Shown in pieces: positions 128-61,296 of a stretch of DNA of 64,000 bases (positions are counted from its first letter, which is position 1; each line of letters begins with the position of its first letter). This DNA is from Variovorax sp. KK3 (lineage in GTDB: Bacteria > Pseudomonadota > Gammaproteobacteria > Burkholderiales > Burkholderiaceae_C), in the NCBI RefSeq assembly GCF_001984055.1, contig NZ_LYVO01000022.1, forward strand, positions 1-64,000. The letters are read 5' to 3'. Both the position numbers and the translations under genes were made by a program. The notes beneath the pieces were generated by a model that saw nothing but the letters and a program-made list of their open reading frames with translations, searched no databases and had not been told where the DNA came from.

Positions 128-2293
128 TCAATCGCTGGCAAGCGCGCTCAGCACGCGCTCGAATGTGATGGGCAATTCGCGGATGCGCACGCCCAACGCG
201 TGCGCCACGGCGTTTCCGATGGCCGCTGCGGTGGGGCCCTGGGCGGCCTCACCCGCACCGACAGAAGGTTCGGACGGTCTTTCCACCAGGGCCACTTCGA
301 CGCGCGGTGCATCGGAGAAGCCAAGAATGGAGTAGTCCCCCCAGCTGCGGGTGGTCACCTCGGTGCGCGAGAAACGGACGGCCTCCTTGAGCGTCCAGCT
401 GCAGCTTTGGACCACGCCGCCCTCGATCTGGTTGCGTACGCCGTCAGGGTTGACGACGAGGCCCACATCCACGGCCGCAGACACATCGAGCACCTGGATG
501 GTCTCCGCCGCCCGGATGCGCAGCGCGACCGCGCACCACGCCCCGGTGTTTTTGTATCGGGCGTAGGCAAAGCCGTGCCCCACGCCCTCCTCGCGCTCGC
601 CGCTCCACCAGGGCGCCGCACCGACGGCACGTCGGATCACCTCGTGGGCACGCGGATCGTTCAGGTGGTTCAAGCGCAGCGCGATCGGATCCTGGCCGGT
701 GTCCGCTGCAATTTCGTCCAGGAAAGATTCGAGCGCGAAGATGTTGGTGTAGCCACCCAGCGCGCGGATGGCCGAGGTGCGCAGAGGCATCTCCAATAGC
801 CGGTGCGCCGTGACGTTCACACGTCCGATGTCGTACAGCGGCACGGCGTTTCGGTCTGCACCGCCGCCGACGGATGCGGGCGGGTCCAGCGACACGGGCG
901 CTGCGAAGCCATCTTCGAGCGCCGAGGCGGCCAGGAAGGACAGCGTGCCTGGTGCGGCACGGCCTGGACGCGCGGTGTAGCCGTTGGACCATATCGTTTG
1001 ATCGAGCGCGAGCAGCGCGCCAGCGGGCGACACCACGGCTCGCAGTTCCACCAGGTGGGCCGGACCGAAGGGGCCGCAGCCGAGTTCATCGGCACGCGTC
1101 CAGAGGACGCGAACGGGTCGACCGCGCGCGGCGCGGGCGAGCAGGACGGCATCGAAGGCCACGTCGTCCGCGGGATTGTGGCCGTAGCAACCTGAGCCCT
1201 CTGCGTGGTGCACGACGATCCTTGGCAGCGCACGGCCGGCGAACTCGCGCTGCACGAACACCGCGAGTTCGGCCCTGACGTTGAAGATGCCCTGGCTGTG
1301 GGTCCACACCTCCAGGCAGTCATCGGTCCAGTGGGCGAGTGCGCAAGACGGGCCGATGGACGCGTGCGCGAGGAAGGGTCGGAGGTAGCCCGCTTCGAAG
1401 ACCCGGGCGCCAGCGCGTCCGTCCAGGGCGTCATGGACGGGACCCAACTTCGCGACCGTGCGCGCCTCCGAAGGCGTTTGGCGAAGAAAGCCCGGCAGTG
1501 CGGCAGCATCGGGAAGCGATGCTGGCAGTTCCCACTGCGCGAGCACAGCGAGCCTGGCTGCCGCCCGGACCGCCGTCTCCTCGCGTTCGGCCAGAACTGC
1601 CAGGAAAGAGCCGTCGCGCACGAGCATCACGCCGGGCCAAGCGGAACGAAAAGATTCCTCGTCGACCGAGCGCAGGCGGGCGGCGGGATTGGGCACGCGC
1701 ACCACGCGTCCGTGCAGCATCTGCGGGAGGACAAGGTCATGGATGAAGGCTGGCTGTCCGAACACCTTGCGCGCGAGGTCTGTGCGCGGCACCGAGCGGC
1801 CCACCAGCGTGAGCTGTGCGTGTTGCTTAGGAGTGGCGTCGGCAGACACGGCCTGTTCCAGCAGCGGGTGCATATCGAGCTCCCAGTAGCTGCTGTGATG
1901 GACGGAGGCGGTGCTGTGCACGCGCCCTTCCTGGACACGCACGGACTGTGCCTCCTCTCCGAAGCGCTCGCAAAACGCTGCCACCGCCAACGCGCGCAAG
2001 GTCGCGCAGGCTTGGCGGACCGCAGCGCCCGAATGCTGGACCGAGTAACTGCCGGAAGTCACGCCCTCGTCCGGGCTGTCGTCGGTGCTGACGGAAGCCA
2101 TGTGCACTTGATCGATGCGCAGGTCCAATTCGTCTGCGGCGATCTGCTGAAGCGCTGTGGTGATGCCTTGGCCGATCTCGACCTTCCCGACCTTCAGCGT
2201 GACCAAGCCCTCCCGGTCGAAGGACAGCCACTGCTTCAGCTGCGGGTTGGCAGGAAGGCTGCCCGACGAGAAGCCTCTCGCCAGCGCGTTCAT
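128..2293 (-). CDS. Molybdenum hydroxylase large (Mo-cofactor) subunit, IorB/NicB-like
   Basis: A 721-residue protein of the xanthine dehydrogenase/aldehyde oxidase molybdopterin-binding family. Near the N-terminus it has GKVEIGQGITTALQQIAADEL, the first glutamine-rich cofactor-contact segment. Near residue 690 it has GAGEAAQGPTAAA, whose glutamate is the expected catalytic base. It is of the shorter type that pairs with a single small 2Fe-2S subunit, as in isoquinoline 1-oxidoreductase and nicotinate dehydrogenase; no FAD subunit is encoded next to it. Its ATG overlaps the stop of the 2Fe-2S gene (ATGA at 2290-2293), so the two subunits are translationally coupled. It would hydroxylate an N-heterocycle or aldehyde with water as oxygen source. 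The substrate cannot be read from the sequence. No Tat signal is seen. Confidence 0.88.
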   Translation of the reverse strand: MNALARGFSSGSLPANPQLKQWLSFDREGLVTLKVGKVEIGQGITTALQQIAADELDLRIDQVHMASVSTDDSPDEGVTSGSYSVQHSGAAVRQACATLRALAVAAFCERFGEEAQSVRVQEGRVHSTASVHHSSYWELDMHPLLEQAVSADATPKQHAQLTLVGRSVPRTDLARKVFGQPAFIHDLVLPQMLHGRVVRVPNPAARLRSVDEESFRSAWPGVMLVRDGSFLAVLAEREETAVRAAARLAVLAQWELPASLPDAAALPGFLRQTPSEARTVAKLGPVHDALDGRAGARVFEAGYLRPFLAHASIGPSCALAHWTDDCLEVWTHSQGIFNVRAELAVFVQREFAGRALPRIVVHHAEGSGCYGHNPADDVAFDAVLLARAARGRPVRVLWTRADELGCGPFGPAHLVELRAVVSPAGALLALDQTIWSNGYTARPGRAAPGTLSFLAASALEDGFAAPVSLDPPASVGGGADRNAVPLYDIGRVNVTAHRLLEMPLRTSAIRALGGYTNIFALESFLDEIAADTGQDPIALRLNHLNDPRAHEVIRRAVGAAPWWSGEREEGVGHGFAYARYKNTGAWCAVALRIRAAETIQVLDVSAAVDVGLVVNPDGVRNQIEGGVVQSCSWTLKEAVRFSRTEVTTRSWGDYSILGFSDAPRVEVALVERPSEPSVGAGEAAQGPTAAAIGNAVAHALGVRIRELPITFERVLSALASD

Positions 2294-6496: not shown

Positions 6497-7483
6497 TCAA
6501 GGATCCAGTTCAATTCTTGCGTCCTGAATTACCTTGCCCCAGCGCTCGCTTTCGGAGCGCATGAAGGCTTCCATCTCGGGTCCGGTCGACTGCAGCGGCT
6601 CGATGCCCGCCTCCTCGATCTTCTTGCGAACCGAAGCATCGGACACGGCCGCGAAGTAGGCCTCCCGCAGTCGAGCCACGGTGGCGGCCGGCGTCGCGCG
6701 TGGTGCGACCAGGCCTTGCCAGTAGAAGACCTCGAAGCCAGGGTACGTGTTCGCGATCGGCGCCACGGTCGGCAATGCCGCAATGGGCTTCAGTGAGGTG
6801 ACGCCCAACGCCCTCAGTTTTCCGGATGCCAGATGACCCCGCGCGCTCGCATAGTCCATGAAAGCCATGCCGATCTGTCCACCCAGGAGATCGGGCAGCG
6901 CCGCGCCCGTGCCCTTGTACGGAACGTGCACGAGTTGGACGCCGGCCGTCCTCTCGAACATCGCGGCAGTGAGGTGCAAGGCATTGCCGTTGCCCGAACT
7001 CGCATAGCTGATGGTGCCGGGCGCCTTCTTTGCCGCGGCCACGAGTTCGCCCACCGTGGCGTACGGCAGCACGTTGGGATTGACGACGAGCAGGAACGGA
7101 AAGCGACCCGTGAGCGAGACCGGCGCAAAGTCGCGAGACGCGTCGTAGCTCAGCTTCTTGTAAAGGCTCGCGTTGGTCGCGAAGGTCGACAGGTCGCCCA
7201 TCAGAAGCCGGCTGCCGTCCGGCTTGGCGCGCGCGACATCGAGCGCGGCAATCGACGTGGTGGCGCCAGGCTTGTTCTCTGCGATCACCGGTTGCCCGAG
7301 TTTCTCGCCCATCTTCTCGGTGATGGTCCGCGTGAAGAAGTCCACCGCCCCGCCGACCTGATAGGGGATCACGATGGTCACCGCACCCGTGGGTGCCGCC
7401 GGCTGCGCCAGCAACGCGGGCGACAAGCCGATCGAAAGCAGGCCGGCGCCCCATTTGATGGCGCTCCGTCGTTGGATAGTCAT
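6497..7483 (-). CDS. Bug-family (TctC-like) solute-binding protein
   Basis: A 328-residue Bug protein. The N-terminus MTIQRRSAIKWGAGLLSIGL carries a twin-arginine-like motif and a hydrophobic core ending in ALLA, so Tat export is possible. Typical Bug blocks follow: VTIVIPYQVGGAVDFFTR, IAENKPGA, YASSGNGNALHL, VPYKGTGAALPDLLGGQI. The start at ATG 7483 is fixed by AGGAGA six to eight bases upstream. It is the last gene of a seven-gene operon that already holds another Bug protein (9538-10509), so the operon encodes two different binding proteins. No TctA/TctB membrane partners are nearby. The ligand is unknown. Confidence 0.92.
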   Translation of the reverse strand: MTIQRRSAIKWGAGLLSIGLSPALLAQPAAPTGAVTIVIPYQVGGAVDFFTRTITEKMGEKLGQPVIAENKPGATTSIAALDVARAKPDGSRLLMGDLSTFATNASLYKKLSYDASRDFAPVSLTGRFPFLLVVNPNVLPYATVGELVAAAKKAPGTISYASSGNGNALHLTAAMFERTAGVQLVHVPYKGTGAALPDLLGGQIGMAFMDYASARGHLASGKLRALGVTSLKPIAALPTVAPIANTYPGFEVFYWQGLVAPRATPAATVARLREAYFAAVSDASVRKKIEEAGIEPLQSTGPEMEAFMRSESERWGKVIQDARIELDP

Positions 7484-48534: not shown

Positions 48535-48921
48535 ATGGACACTTCAGTTGCTCTTAGCGGCGAGCGTCGGCGTCGACGCAAGCACAGCGCCGAGTTCAAG
48601 GCGCACGTCGTGGCGGCGTGTAGCAAGCCGGGCGTGTCGTCGGCGTCGGTGGCGATGGCCAATGGCATCAACGCGAATCTGGTGCGCCGTTGGGTTAAGG
48701 ACGCAGAGGCCGAGCGGGAAGATGTGAAGGAGATCGGCGCAACGAACCCGGTCAAGCGGCCGGTAACCAAATTCGTGCCGCTGCCGCTGCCACTGCCGTC
48801 GCCTGCGCCGGTGAGCGACATCCGAGTCGAGCTGCAGCGAGGCACAACCAAGATCGTCGTGATCTGGCCGGCGACTGCGGCGGCGCAGTGCGCGGCATGG
48901 ATGCGAGAGCTGCTGCAATGA
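48535..48921 (+). mobile_element. tnpA: IS66 family accessory protein TnpA
   Basis: A 128-residue protein. The first 65 residues are a helix-turn-helix domain (HSAEFKAHVVAACSKPGVSS, VAMANGINANLVRRWVKD), the mark of IS66 TnpA. A proline-rich linker (PLPLPLPSPAP) is followed by a strand-rich end (IRVELQRGTTKIVVIWP). It is required for IS66 transposition together with TnpB and TnpC. It overlaps tnpB by 4 bp (ATGA). It appears intact. Confidence 0.88.
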
Positions 48922-49253
48922 TCCGGATCGACGCGATGTGGCTGGCGGTCGAGCCGATCGACATGCGAGCCGGAGCGGAGCGACTGTTGACGAGCGTCGT
49001 GCAGGTCTTCGGCGCCGCGCAGGCTCACCACGGCTACGTGTTCGCCAATGCTCGTGCCACTCGCATCAAGCTGCTCGTGCACGATGGCTTTGGGCTGTGG
49101 TGTGCAGCGCGGCGTCTTAACGAGTGCCGGTTCGCGTGGCCAGCCTCTGGCTCAAAGGCAGTGCCTGCGTTGACACAGGCCCAGTTCGACGCGCTCGTCG
49201 TGGGCCTGCCTTGGCAGCGGCTGCAGCAGATGCAACTCATCATGCGCACGTAG
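48918..49253 (+). mobile_element. tnpB: IS66 family accessory protein TnpB
   Basis: A 111-residue protein with the IS66 Orf2 signature: DAMWLAVEPIDMRAGAERLL, VFANARATRIKLLVHDGFGLW and LNECRFAWP. The start ATG 48918 overlaps the tnpA stop. The large DDE transposase gene tnpC, expected straight after it, is not present; the sequence that follows belongs to an unrelated reading frame. The element therefore cannot move on its own. Confidence 0.88.
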
Positions 49254-57847: not shown

Positions 57848-57863
57848 CTGTATGTAAATACAG
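57848..57863 (+). promoter_or_regulatory. LexA-type SOS box
   Basis: CTGTATGTAAATACAG is a perfect CTGT-N8-ACAG palindromic half-site pair, the LexA-binding consensus of gamma- and betaproteobacteria. It lies 23 bases before the ATG of the DUF3072 gene. Confidence 0.75.
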
Positions 57864-57885: not shown

Positions 57886-58116
57886 ATGACCGACAAAGCC
57901 ACGCAGCAGCACGCACAGGAAAGCAATATGGAGAAGGACCCAAAGAGCTGGGTCACGGGCGACGAGCCGATGACCGGTGCCCAGCTTTCCTACCTCAAGA
58001 CGCTGTCCGAAGAGGCCAAGGAGCCGTTCGATGCGAACCTCACCAAGGCCCAGGCGTCTAAACGCATCGACGAACTGCAGGCGGTCACCGGCCGAGGCGA
58101 GCACCCGGCCACTTGA
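57886..58116 (+). CDS. DUF3072 family small protein
   Basis: A 76-residue protein: WVTGDEPMTGAQLSYLKTLS, EEAKEPFDANLTKAQASKRI and DELQAVTGRG. This is the DUF3072 family, whose second part resembles short helix-extended-loop-helix domains seen in nucleic-acid-related proteins. The ATG is preceded by AGGAG. The gene has its own LexA box, which suggests induction by DNA damage. Function unknown. Confidence 0.88.
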   Translation: MTDKATQQHAQESNMEKDPKSWVTGDEPMTGAQLSYLKTLSEEAKEPFDANLTKAQASKRIDELQAVTGRGEHPAT

Positions 58117-59231: not shown

Positions 59232-59419
59232 CCGTCGATTTCCTGCCGCTCGAGTCCCGCGCGCCATGCCGGCGCGGTCTGTTGGTGCAGGTCTGCACGA
59301 CTTTTGAAACGTCTGCGTATGTTTTGCGCATGCGAAAATTCCAAGCACAACAACGACGCGTTCGAACAGGACAGGCGTGATGCTCTCGATCGAGGCACGC
59401 GCTTTGTGATGCAACGGTG

Positions 59420-59614
59420 ATGAAGAAGATCAAGCTCAACGAGGAGCAGTGGAGAACGCTCGAGGCCCTGCGCAAGGCCATGGCGATGCGGCGATCCGCT
59501 GAGGACATCAAGGTGCCGCGCCGGCTTCTGTCCAACGGCCTCGCCGTCGAGGACCGACACGGTATTTGTGCGCTGACCGAACTGGGGCTGACCCGGCTCA
59601 ATCAAGGGCGGTAG
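59420..59614 (+). CDS. Small hypothetical protein
   Basis: A 64-residue frame, KKIKLNEEQWRTLEALRKAM, RRSAEDIKVPRRLLSNGLAV and HGICALTELGLTRLNQG. The pattern of a short helix-turn-helix followed by a strand pair resembles a winged-helix fragment. There is no clear ribosome-binding site. A palindrome CGCATGCG flanked by TTTTG and AAAA (59322-59338) lies 80 bases upstream. Function unknown. Confidence 0.5.
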   Translation: MKKIKLNEEQWRTLEALRKAMAMRRSAEDIKVPRRLLSNGLAVEDRHGICALTELGLTRLNQGR

Positions 59615-60095: not shown

Positions 60096-60833
60096 ACGGC
60101 TCCGACTCTGTTTCTCGAGATGGCGCCATCCATGCAGCGTCGGCTGGCGTGGAGCGCCCGTGGGGCAGTATCGGCCACGCACCGTGTTCGGTGCGTTGCC
60201 CAACGACAAATACCTGCGCGACCTCACACCGCTTCACGGTGGCCAATGGCGTCCGGCGACCTGGGCTGCGCCCGGCGCCTTCGCGTGTTTGCTGTTCATC
60301 TTCTGACGGGCCCGCGGCGCGCATGCGCTGCAGGGGATGTGTCTTCCTCGTGAGACTACGCGACGCGGCCCGCTTTGCACGGGCGCCAAGCGCCCCAACA
60401 CGAAGATCTCGAAGCCAGCAGCCCCGAGGCCTGTCCATCGGCACGCCGGAAGCGCCACCACTTGCAGCGAGAACAGGGCTGCTTTCACGCACTCCAGCGG
60501 GTTTTGTCGACGCTCGGCGCTGGGACGATGCAACGCTCGCCGCGCCTGCAAGGATTCTGCGGCTGGCCCTTCTCCGACGACTCCTCGCCGCGCGCAGCGT
60601 TGGTCAGGCACTTCGGCGTCGGCTCCTGGGCGGATCGAAAGACCCAGAACACCTCGAACCACCACGAGTTTCCCGCACGCTGCCGCGTCGCGCCGGCCAC
60701 GAACCAAGAAACCTGCCGCTCGAAGTTGGCGCTCGAGCTGCCACGGCGACTGACTACGCACACCGGTGGCCCTACGTTCGATCTGCGCGGCCTTCGGCCA
60801 GAACACCTGTTGCACCCGCCCGCACAGTCGCGA
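60096..60833. other. Stretch without a recognised gene
   Basis: In 738 bases there are several long open frames on both strands, as expected in high-GC DNA, but none has recognisable motifs. I see no repeat or terminator. Confidence 0.3.
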
Positions 60834-61028
60834 TCAGGACGGCAGTTCCATCACGGGCCCGAGCCACGCCTCGGCTGCAGCACGCGGCGGCAACGCGCGC
60901 AAGCGCGCGTCGCGCCAAAGTTCGGTGGCCATCTCCTCAAGTTCCCGAGGATTCACAGTGCGCCACCGGAGCTGCAGGGCGTGCGCGCAGGCGGCGATCC
61001 AGATGTCAGGTGAAATGGCGTCGGCCAT
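60834..61028 (-). CDS. Small hypothetical protein, divergent from a LexA box
   Basis: A 64-residue frame: MADAISPDIWIAACAHALQL, RWRTVNPRELEEMATELWRD and RLRALPPRAAAEAWLGPVME. It is helix-rich with a tryptophan-containing start and end, and looks like a true small gene. The ATG at 61028 is 14 bases from the LexA box (61043-61058). Unknown function. Confidence 0.6.
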   Translation of the reverse strand: MADAISPDIWIAACAHALQLRWRTVNPRELEEMATELWRDARLRALPPRAAAEAWLGPVMELPS

Positions 61029-61042
61029 GGCGTTTCCACAAG

Positions 61043-61058
61043 CTGTACAAACATACAG
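61043..61058. promoter_or_regulatory. LexA-type SOS box between two small genes
   Basis: CTGTACAAACATACAG is a perfect CTGT-N8-ACAG box. It lies between the divergent small genes ending at 60834 and 61296 and so could control both. On the plus strand the -10-like TACAGT (61054-61059) overlaps the box; on the minus strand TATGTT does. Confidence 0.75.
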
Positions 61059-61062
61059 TATC

Positions 61063-61296
61063 ATGGCATCCATGCGCCAGCAAGACCTTCTCTCGAACGA
61101 CGCCCCGACGCTCATGCGCATGCCCTCCTGGCTCGGCGCCGACGTCCGCGAAGAGCGCGAACTGCCTCTCTTGCCAGGCGACTACGAGGTCACGCCTGGC
61201 GAGGATCGATGGACCGTCAGGTGCCGGAAGACCGGCCAGATCGTCTACAACGGCATCGGTCCTGTCGAAGTCGTGCGATCGCCGGCACCGTCCTGA
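61063..61296 (+). CDS. Small hypothetical protein downstream of a LexA box
   Basis: A 77-residue frame with protein-like sequence: MRMPSWLGADVREERELPLL, PGDYEVTPGEDRWTVRCRKT and GQIVYNGIGPVEVV. It probably forms a small beta-rich fold. Two ATGs (61063 and 61072) are only 4 and 13 bases from the LexA box, so translation may use a very short leader. Unknown function. Confidence 0.55.
   Translation: MASMRQQDLLSNDAPTLMRMPSWLGADVREERELPLLPGDYEVTPGEDRWTVRCRKTGQIVYNGIGPVEVVRSPAPS

Follow-up and report, generated by a model that had tools for sequence, protein, structure and literature searches.

Two divergent small genes flanking a LexA-type box in Variovorax sp. KK3 are members of a probably damage-induced gene set that is widespread and in part carried by phages

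The window analyzed here is the whole stretch of 64,000 nucleotides taken from Variovorax sp. KK3 (contig NZ_LYVO01000022.1, positions 1 to 64,000). Near its end, two small genes, hereafter named A and B, diverge from a single LexA-type operator, and the remains of a gene of the SRAP family (YedK/HMCES, PF02586) are found downstream of A. The features of the locus are the following:

60305-60797, minus strand: broken SRAP remnant, two pieces in different frames, downstream of A; its start and C-terminal part were not found
60834-61028, minus strand: gene A, 64 aa, start codon 14 nt from the box; predicted helical bundle, from a family without a name
61035-61064, plus strand: sigma-70-like promoter TCCACA-18-TATCAT, a consensus match only, overlapping the operator (shuffle mean 0.0)
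61043-61058, no strand assigned: LexA-type operator CTGTACAAACATACAG, common to A and B
61072-61296, plus strand: gene B, 74 aa from its likely start at 61072 (77 aa from 61063); small protein with six predicted strands, from a family without a name

The operator sits inside the 34 bp that separate the minus-strand ATG (61028) from the plus-strand ATG at 61063, exactly where an earlier inspection of the letters (hereafter the sequence-only reading) had placed it. The loose pattern CTGT-N8-ACAG occurs twice in the window for 0.54 occurrences expected, and as two or more were obtained in 15 of 100 shuffles, this is not significant within the window alone. The more stringent LexA-type form, CTGTAY-N4-RTACAG, was found twice, against none in 100 shuffles. 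Over the 7,190,799 bases of the genome, this strict form gave 9 distinct sites, and 0 in the reversed control. Other strict boxes of the genome adjoin imuA (L003) and uvrD (L006), these neighbours being named by eye from their translations. A parE-like gene (L119) and two radical-SAM genes (L122, L123) of the same genome (C2, C80, C106), again named by eye, each have a strict box immediately upstream; the boxes of L004 and L120 have neighbours without a clear identity by eye. For LexA itself, one PF01726 match above cut-off was found in the genome. A chance box is ruled out by the genome count of 9 versus 0, by its absence from 100 shuffles and by its conservation before A, described below. 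An operator of the host motif lies in the promoter region, it is conserved before orthologues, and LexA is present in the genome; purely by comparison, we infer that LexA controls A and B.

The second strict box of the window, CTGTATGTAAATACAG (57848-57863), lies 22 bp before a plus-strand gene (57886-58116) whose product matches DUF3072 (PF11272, 1.2e-31). This suggests that the DUF3072 gene, 3 kb from A and B, is another SOS-controlled gene of unknown function.

The two frames that had been pointed out by the sequence-only reading, of 64 codons (60834-61028) and 77 codons (61063-61296), are both real, the second being likely to have 74 codons. Median dN/dS is 0.14 over 110 pairs for the A family and 0.31 over 140 pairs for the B family, so that A and B are protein-coding genes under selection; together with the conservation of both families, these values rule out spurious frames. 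The family alignment of the 64-residue A protein has conserved W, L, A and W positions. Structure prediction gave a helical bundle for A (mean pLDDT 85.9, 14 sequences) and six strands for B (pLDDT 80.8, 20 sequences).

A known family was sought for both proteins, and none was convincing, Pfam and NCBIfam matches being weak throughout. For the A family, the best Pfam match was 0.0018, to DUF3459, in one of 29 members (P0001 itself being at 0.043, below the cut-off), and the best NCBIfam match was a weak 0.021, to a three-helix bundle dimerization domain, in 3 of the 29. The best values of the B family were 0.074 and 0.081, in one of 20 members. The 29 A members were also scanned against PHROGs, with a best value of 0.021 for one member. 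Foldseek returned nothing at E ≤ 0.001 for A or B in the PDB, nor for B in BFVD, and the best VIA fold comparisons were weak (Z 4.4, rmsd 4.7, 60 aligned residues for A; Z 2.9, rmsd 3.4, 55 aligned residues for B).

One sigma-70-like promoter was found on the plus strand, and its -10, TATCAT, ends at 61064. This hexamer contains the ATG at 61063, which is thus unlikely to be present in the message. Relatives align from the next ATG, at 61072, as seen with L213 (MSQLDLLAKPRPTLLRMPSWLG, compared to MRQQDLLSNDAPTLMRMPSWLG in the window), and this ATG stands 7 nt past the -10. On these two grounds, B probably starts at 61072, with 74 codons and a leaderless message, and its transcription is predicted to begin at or next to this ATG. 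On the minus strand, no -10 hexamer of the kind present in relatives was found before the A gene of the window. The proposal that the box overlaps the -10 of both genes is therefore borne out for B only.

Among A genes at large, the ATG comes 5-7 nt after the end of a -10 hexamer in 50 of 66 upstream regions, compared with 1.6% of 17,396 background ATGs; in this count, rows without a box or without a following ATG were dropped, the end of the box itself partly supplies the hexamer where the spacer is 7-9 nt, and the 66 regions include close relatives, viral-collection loci above all. The distance from box to start is 7-9, 12-13 or 20-22 nt in most rows. From these distances and the position of the -10, transcription is expected to start at the initiation codon itself and LexA to cover the promoter, and by their layout most A messages look leaderless. 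Several more distant relatives (L028, L031, L032) have a Shine-Dalgarno-like stretch instead. A nearly leaderless message, as had been suggested, is thus a conserved layout in A (50 of the 66 starts), and would hold for B from 61072, the ATG at 61063 being within the -10.

We then turn to distribution. A is present in 28 of 399 genomes of the family (35 places) and in 72 of 101 genomes of the genus, B in 21 of the 399 and 44 of the 101. Both occur in 31 of the 101 genus genomes, and as neighbours in 14 of those 31. From the 130 A places and 68 B places listed for the genus, 17 pairs emerge in which at most 5 kb separates the two genes, all 17 divergent and 16 within 1.4 kb; the same 17 pairs had been obtained in a first pairing that used part of the A places. 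Copies of A and B are found on large plasmids, in contigs of 4-6.5 Mb and in the viral collection. Outside the family, among 399 genomes of the order, only the genome under study and one weak match were recovered for A, in a search that scored up to 15 candidates per genome and may therefore overlook distant copies.

Of the 46 distinct A upstream regions from all sources, 42 contain a box with 0-1 mismatch (27 exact, 15 with one mismatch), in a set that also includes close relatives, viral-collection loci above all; at 6946 background ATGs, an exact box was found for 0.33% and a box with at most one mismatch for 1.7%. The four regions without a box are L002, L017, L020 and L034. Such a box was found at 26 of the 30 A loci retrieved from the family genomes, and, of the 15 divergent loci that were read, 14 have one between A and B, on the side of A (8 exact). 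A strict box lies within 1 kb upstream of B at 13 of 29 loci and is absent from the other 16, L064 having been dropped as the same place as L059, compared with 63 of 5750 background windows. Conservation of the pair with its box, a test set beforehand, was thus obtained for both families, for their divergence and for the box. The idea of an SOS pair not yet described is supported but needs amending: the two genes do diverge around a conserved LexA-type box, but an exclusive A/B pair is ruled out, A and B being often found apart, and they are members of a larger cassette.

Two orders were seen for this cassette, SRAP<-A<-box->X->B and box-umuD-umuC-B. Gene X (about 115-150 residues), or a gene named Q (77-159 residues), often lies between the box and B, and X forms and similar neighbours had no Pfam match at 0.1. 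Of 12 viral-collection loci, 9 have SRAP immediately following A, as do 7 of the 18 loci read in the genus. B closes the box-umuD-umuC arrangement at three loci (L094, L100, L135). At the L031/L108 A locus, an A-like domain was observed within a 172-residue frame ending KTSAPF, after a box-A-X-like arrangement.

We propose, with a probability of about 0.8, that A and B form the core of small genes in a DNA-damage cassette under LexA control, as this comparative evidence suggests. By extension of established SOS biology, LexA bound to the box would block both promoters; RecA filaments forming on damaged DNA would lead LexA to cleave itself, and both small proteins would then be made at once.

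A further feature is the C-terminal Pro-Phe (PF) tip, which was noticed first in B. Scanning for frames ending in [A/V/I]PF around the loci returned B proteins, one A protein, Q, the A-like protein of L108, and SSB. The SSB of the Variovorax sp. KK3 genome ends EEDDIPF. PF terminates 28 of 81 distinct B proteins and is absent from the other 53. It terminates 3 of 74 A proteins counted, plus L222 and L223, which are missing from the count because it drops proteins whose match stopped more than 12 residues before the query end; most A proteins are without PF. The four closest relatives of the window A protein in other genomes, read after the frame counts given below, end PTPF, PLPF, PLPF and PTPF, and its nearest copy, the N-terminally cut C17 of the same genome, continues beyond this position and has no PF. 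Among the nearest B relatives, two (L220 and L217) have no terminal PF.

The association with the box was quantified on mechanically defined frames, B being excluded by a sequence pattern, and a frame being counted as near a box if it ends 120-1500 nt downstream of it on the same strand. Ends in [AVIL]PF, a class widened after an earlier look, were found for 7 of 712 frames near a box, which are not independent (three are Q relatives and two SRAP relatives), and for 1 of 5811 elsewhere, namely SSB (Fisher p 1.3e-6). With plain PF ends, B still set aside, the figures were 7 of 712 and 7 of 5811 (p 3e-4), at least two of the far ones being SSB-like by their tails. Two SRAPs (L091, L128) end SSB-like, with the acidic tails EEEELPF and EEEEDLPF, and most of the 31 distinct SRAP tails read have no SSB-like end. 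SRAP tails of L019, L087, L125 and L085 end QGDLF, RQLF, DQLLL or VGLF, which we take to resemble beta-clamp binding motifs.

It is tempting to see in PF-ended cassette proteins mimics of the SSB tip, which might dock into SSB-tip pockets, an interpretation that we hold as tentative and rather less likely than not. The terminal Pro-Phe of many B proteins, some A proteins, three Q and two SRAPs, as well as the acidic run of those SRAPs, are like the SSB-Ct (PMC10164576, available part). Unlike SSB, A and B lack the acidic run, no SSB domain was detected in them, and the window copies of both end Pro-Ser rather than Pro-Phe. For RecG, loss of the terminal Phe of the SSB tip, or a change of its Pro to Ser, weakens binding, and other partners are similarly specific, according to the same part of that paper (PMC10164576).

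The copy in the window is probably partly decayed, since both tips are Pro-Ser, SRAP is broken and X is missing. In tblastn with the SRAP that is intact elsewhere in the genome (L002; PF02586 match, 3.4e-28), one window piece aligned with its residues 8-60 (44% identity) and the other with its residues 46-166 (38% identity). An intact SRAP is adjacent to A or B in many relatives and not in the window, and neither X nor Q was found between the window box and B. The locus could therefore be a relic, in which recent descent accounts for the persistence of box and frames while both genes are idle, and we consider this quite conceivable, if somewhat doubtful. Besides these losses, both C-terminal tips are unlike those of most nearest relatives read, the window A gene is without the -10 of its family, and the C17 locus offers a parallel, where the second A copy of the genome has neither N-terminus nor box, though its SRAP is intact. 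However, both frames and the box of the window are intact, B has a good promoter match, and comparison of the window A gene with the C17 copy gives a dN of 0.09 for a dS of 0.68. The window copy has probably kept its regulation but lost part of its function.

Two observations were made on the surroundings. On the far side of the SRAP copy lies a 65-codon gene (MKKIxLNEEQW...), at 59417-59614 (plus strand) in the window and at 300-494 (plus strand) in L002, with 62% identity. IS66-like transposase accessory frames were recognized by eye at 48535-49253, and clear genes are scarce in the window between about 48 and 64 kb.

The cassette was encountered on chromosomes, on plasmids, in prophages and in one isolated phage, which indicates that it is at least partly mobile. 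It might then be the cargo of prophages or other elements that time their own excision or recombination by the LexA of the host, rather than a help to host repair. Consistent with this, the Acidovorax phage AP1, an isolated phage (OM049504.1, 32057-32681), carries a box-X-B arrangement, where the genes are annotated as hypothetical proteins and B ends SPAPF; in the prophage-like contig L134, box-X-B lies between a CI-like repressor gene and genes for an Erf-like annealing protein, an exonuclease and SSB; and integrase or lysis genes are close by in L138, L139 and L145. Judging by replicon and neighbours, however, large plasmids and the contigs of 4-6.5 Mb also hold copies, of which some adjoin SRAP or umuDC, and A had no match in 50,697 phage records, all of which makes the cargo explanation unlikely. 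A LexA-controlled toxin-antitoxin or other obligate partner pair, co-made after damage, is what two small divergent genes with a single box and a mobile distribution (plasmids, viral collection) could evoke, several SOS-controlled toxins being known in other bacteria, but it is most improbable, as the partners are not kept together (of 101 genomes, 72 have A and 44 have B; 31 have both, as neighbours in 14), each has other partners (SRAP for A; X or umuC, which B follows), and the weak Pfam and NCBIfam matches include no toxin or antitoxin family.

We return to A and B as core of a probable damage cassette that is widespread and partly phage-carried. DinI, SulA and TisB are small SOS proteins, and A and B are like them as small genes with LexA-type control, here deduced by comparison; unlike them, A and B matched no sequence family convincingly and have other genomic partners. 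As to what the two proteins might do, they may be small adaptors that work alongside SRAP and Pol V when abasic sites are protected and lesions bypassed, many B proteins and the closest relatives of the window A protein from other genomes entering SSB-tip pockets via their Pro-Phe tip; the balance is against this rather than for it. A broader version, which we put forward as the more speculative of the two, would apply to Comamonadaceae and their phages: LexA-switched small proteins that are otherwise unrelated (helical A, strand-rich B, Q), and some SRAPs, would share only an SSB-like Pro-Phe tip, by which they would, after damage, compete with SSB or extend it in docking pockets, so that repair enzymes would be diverted to SRAP and Pol V. 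The tip is carried by different members from one cassette to another, and the Pro-Ser ends of the window would mean that the function was lost or re-targeted in both proteins.

SOS neighbourhoods have been described for SRAP, with umuDC, imuAB-dnaE2, dinB and Ku (PMC3765255, in the part available). The present loci recall them in that, in many relatives, SRAP either follows A or diverges from the box, in an SOS context, and in that umuD-umuC operons carry B as their last gene at three loci. They differ from what that part of PMC3765255 describes, which is operons without A, B, X, Q or a box common to divergent small genes, and the SRAP of the window is broken. Two unnamed LexA-regulated genes of beta-proteobacteria, hypA and hypB, have also been predicted, hypB exclusive to Burkholderia and hypA limited to beta-Proteobacteria with multiple chromosomes (PMC3323433, available part). 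That work shares with ours the CTGT-N8-ACAG motif, the comparative method and the bacterial class; it predicts splB too, and Variovorax paradoxus figures in its Figure 5 legend. A and B were set beside hypA and hypB by their description in that part of the paper (PMC3323433). In the literature consulted on LexA regulons, Variovorax SOS, SSB-tip mimicry and phage AP1, mostly outside subscription papers, nothing on A or B was found, and nothing was found on SRAP/YedK with SSB and the C-terminal tip.

These results bear on SOS regulons outside E. coli, where many unnamed small genes remain. Here, a cassette common in the genus is carried by phages and plasmids and adjoins SRAP and Pol V genes. 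Its conserved leaderless layout is such that the stretch occupied by LexA would lie immediately upstream of the start codon. Finally, the tips suggest a principle that can be tested, namely that proteins made during the SOS response may imitate the tail of SSB to redirect repair.
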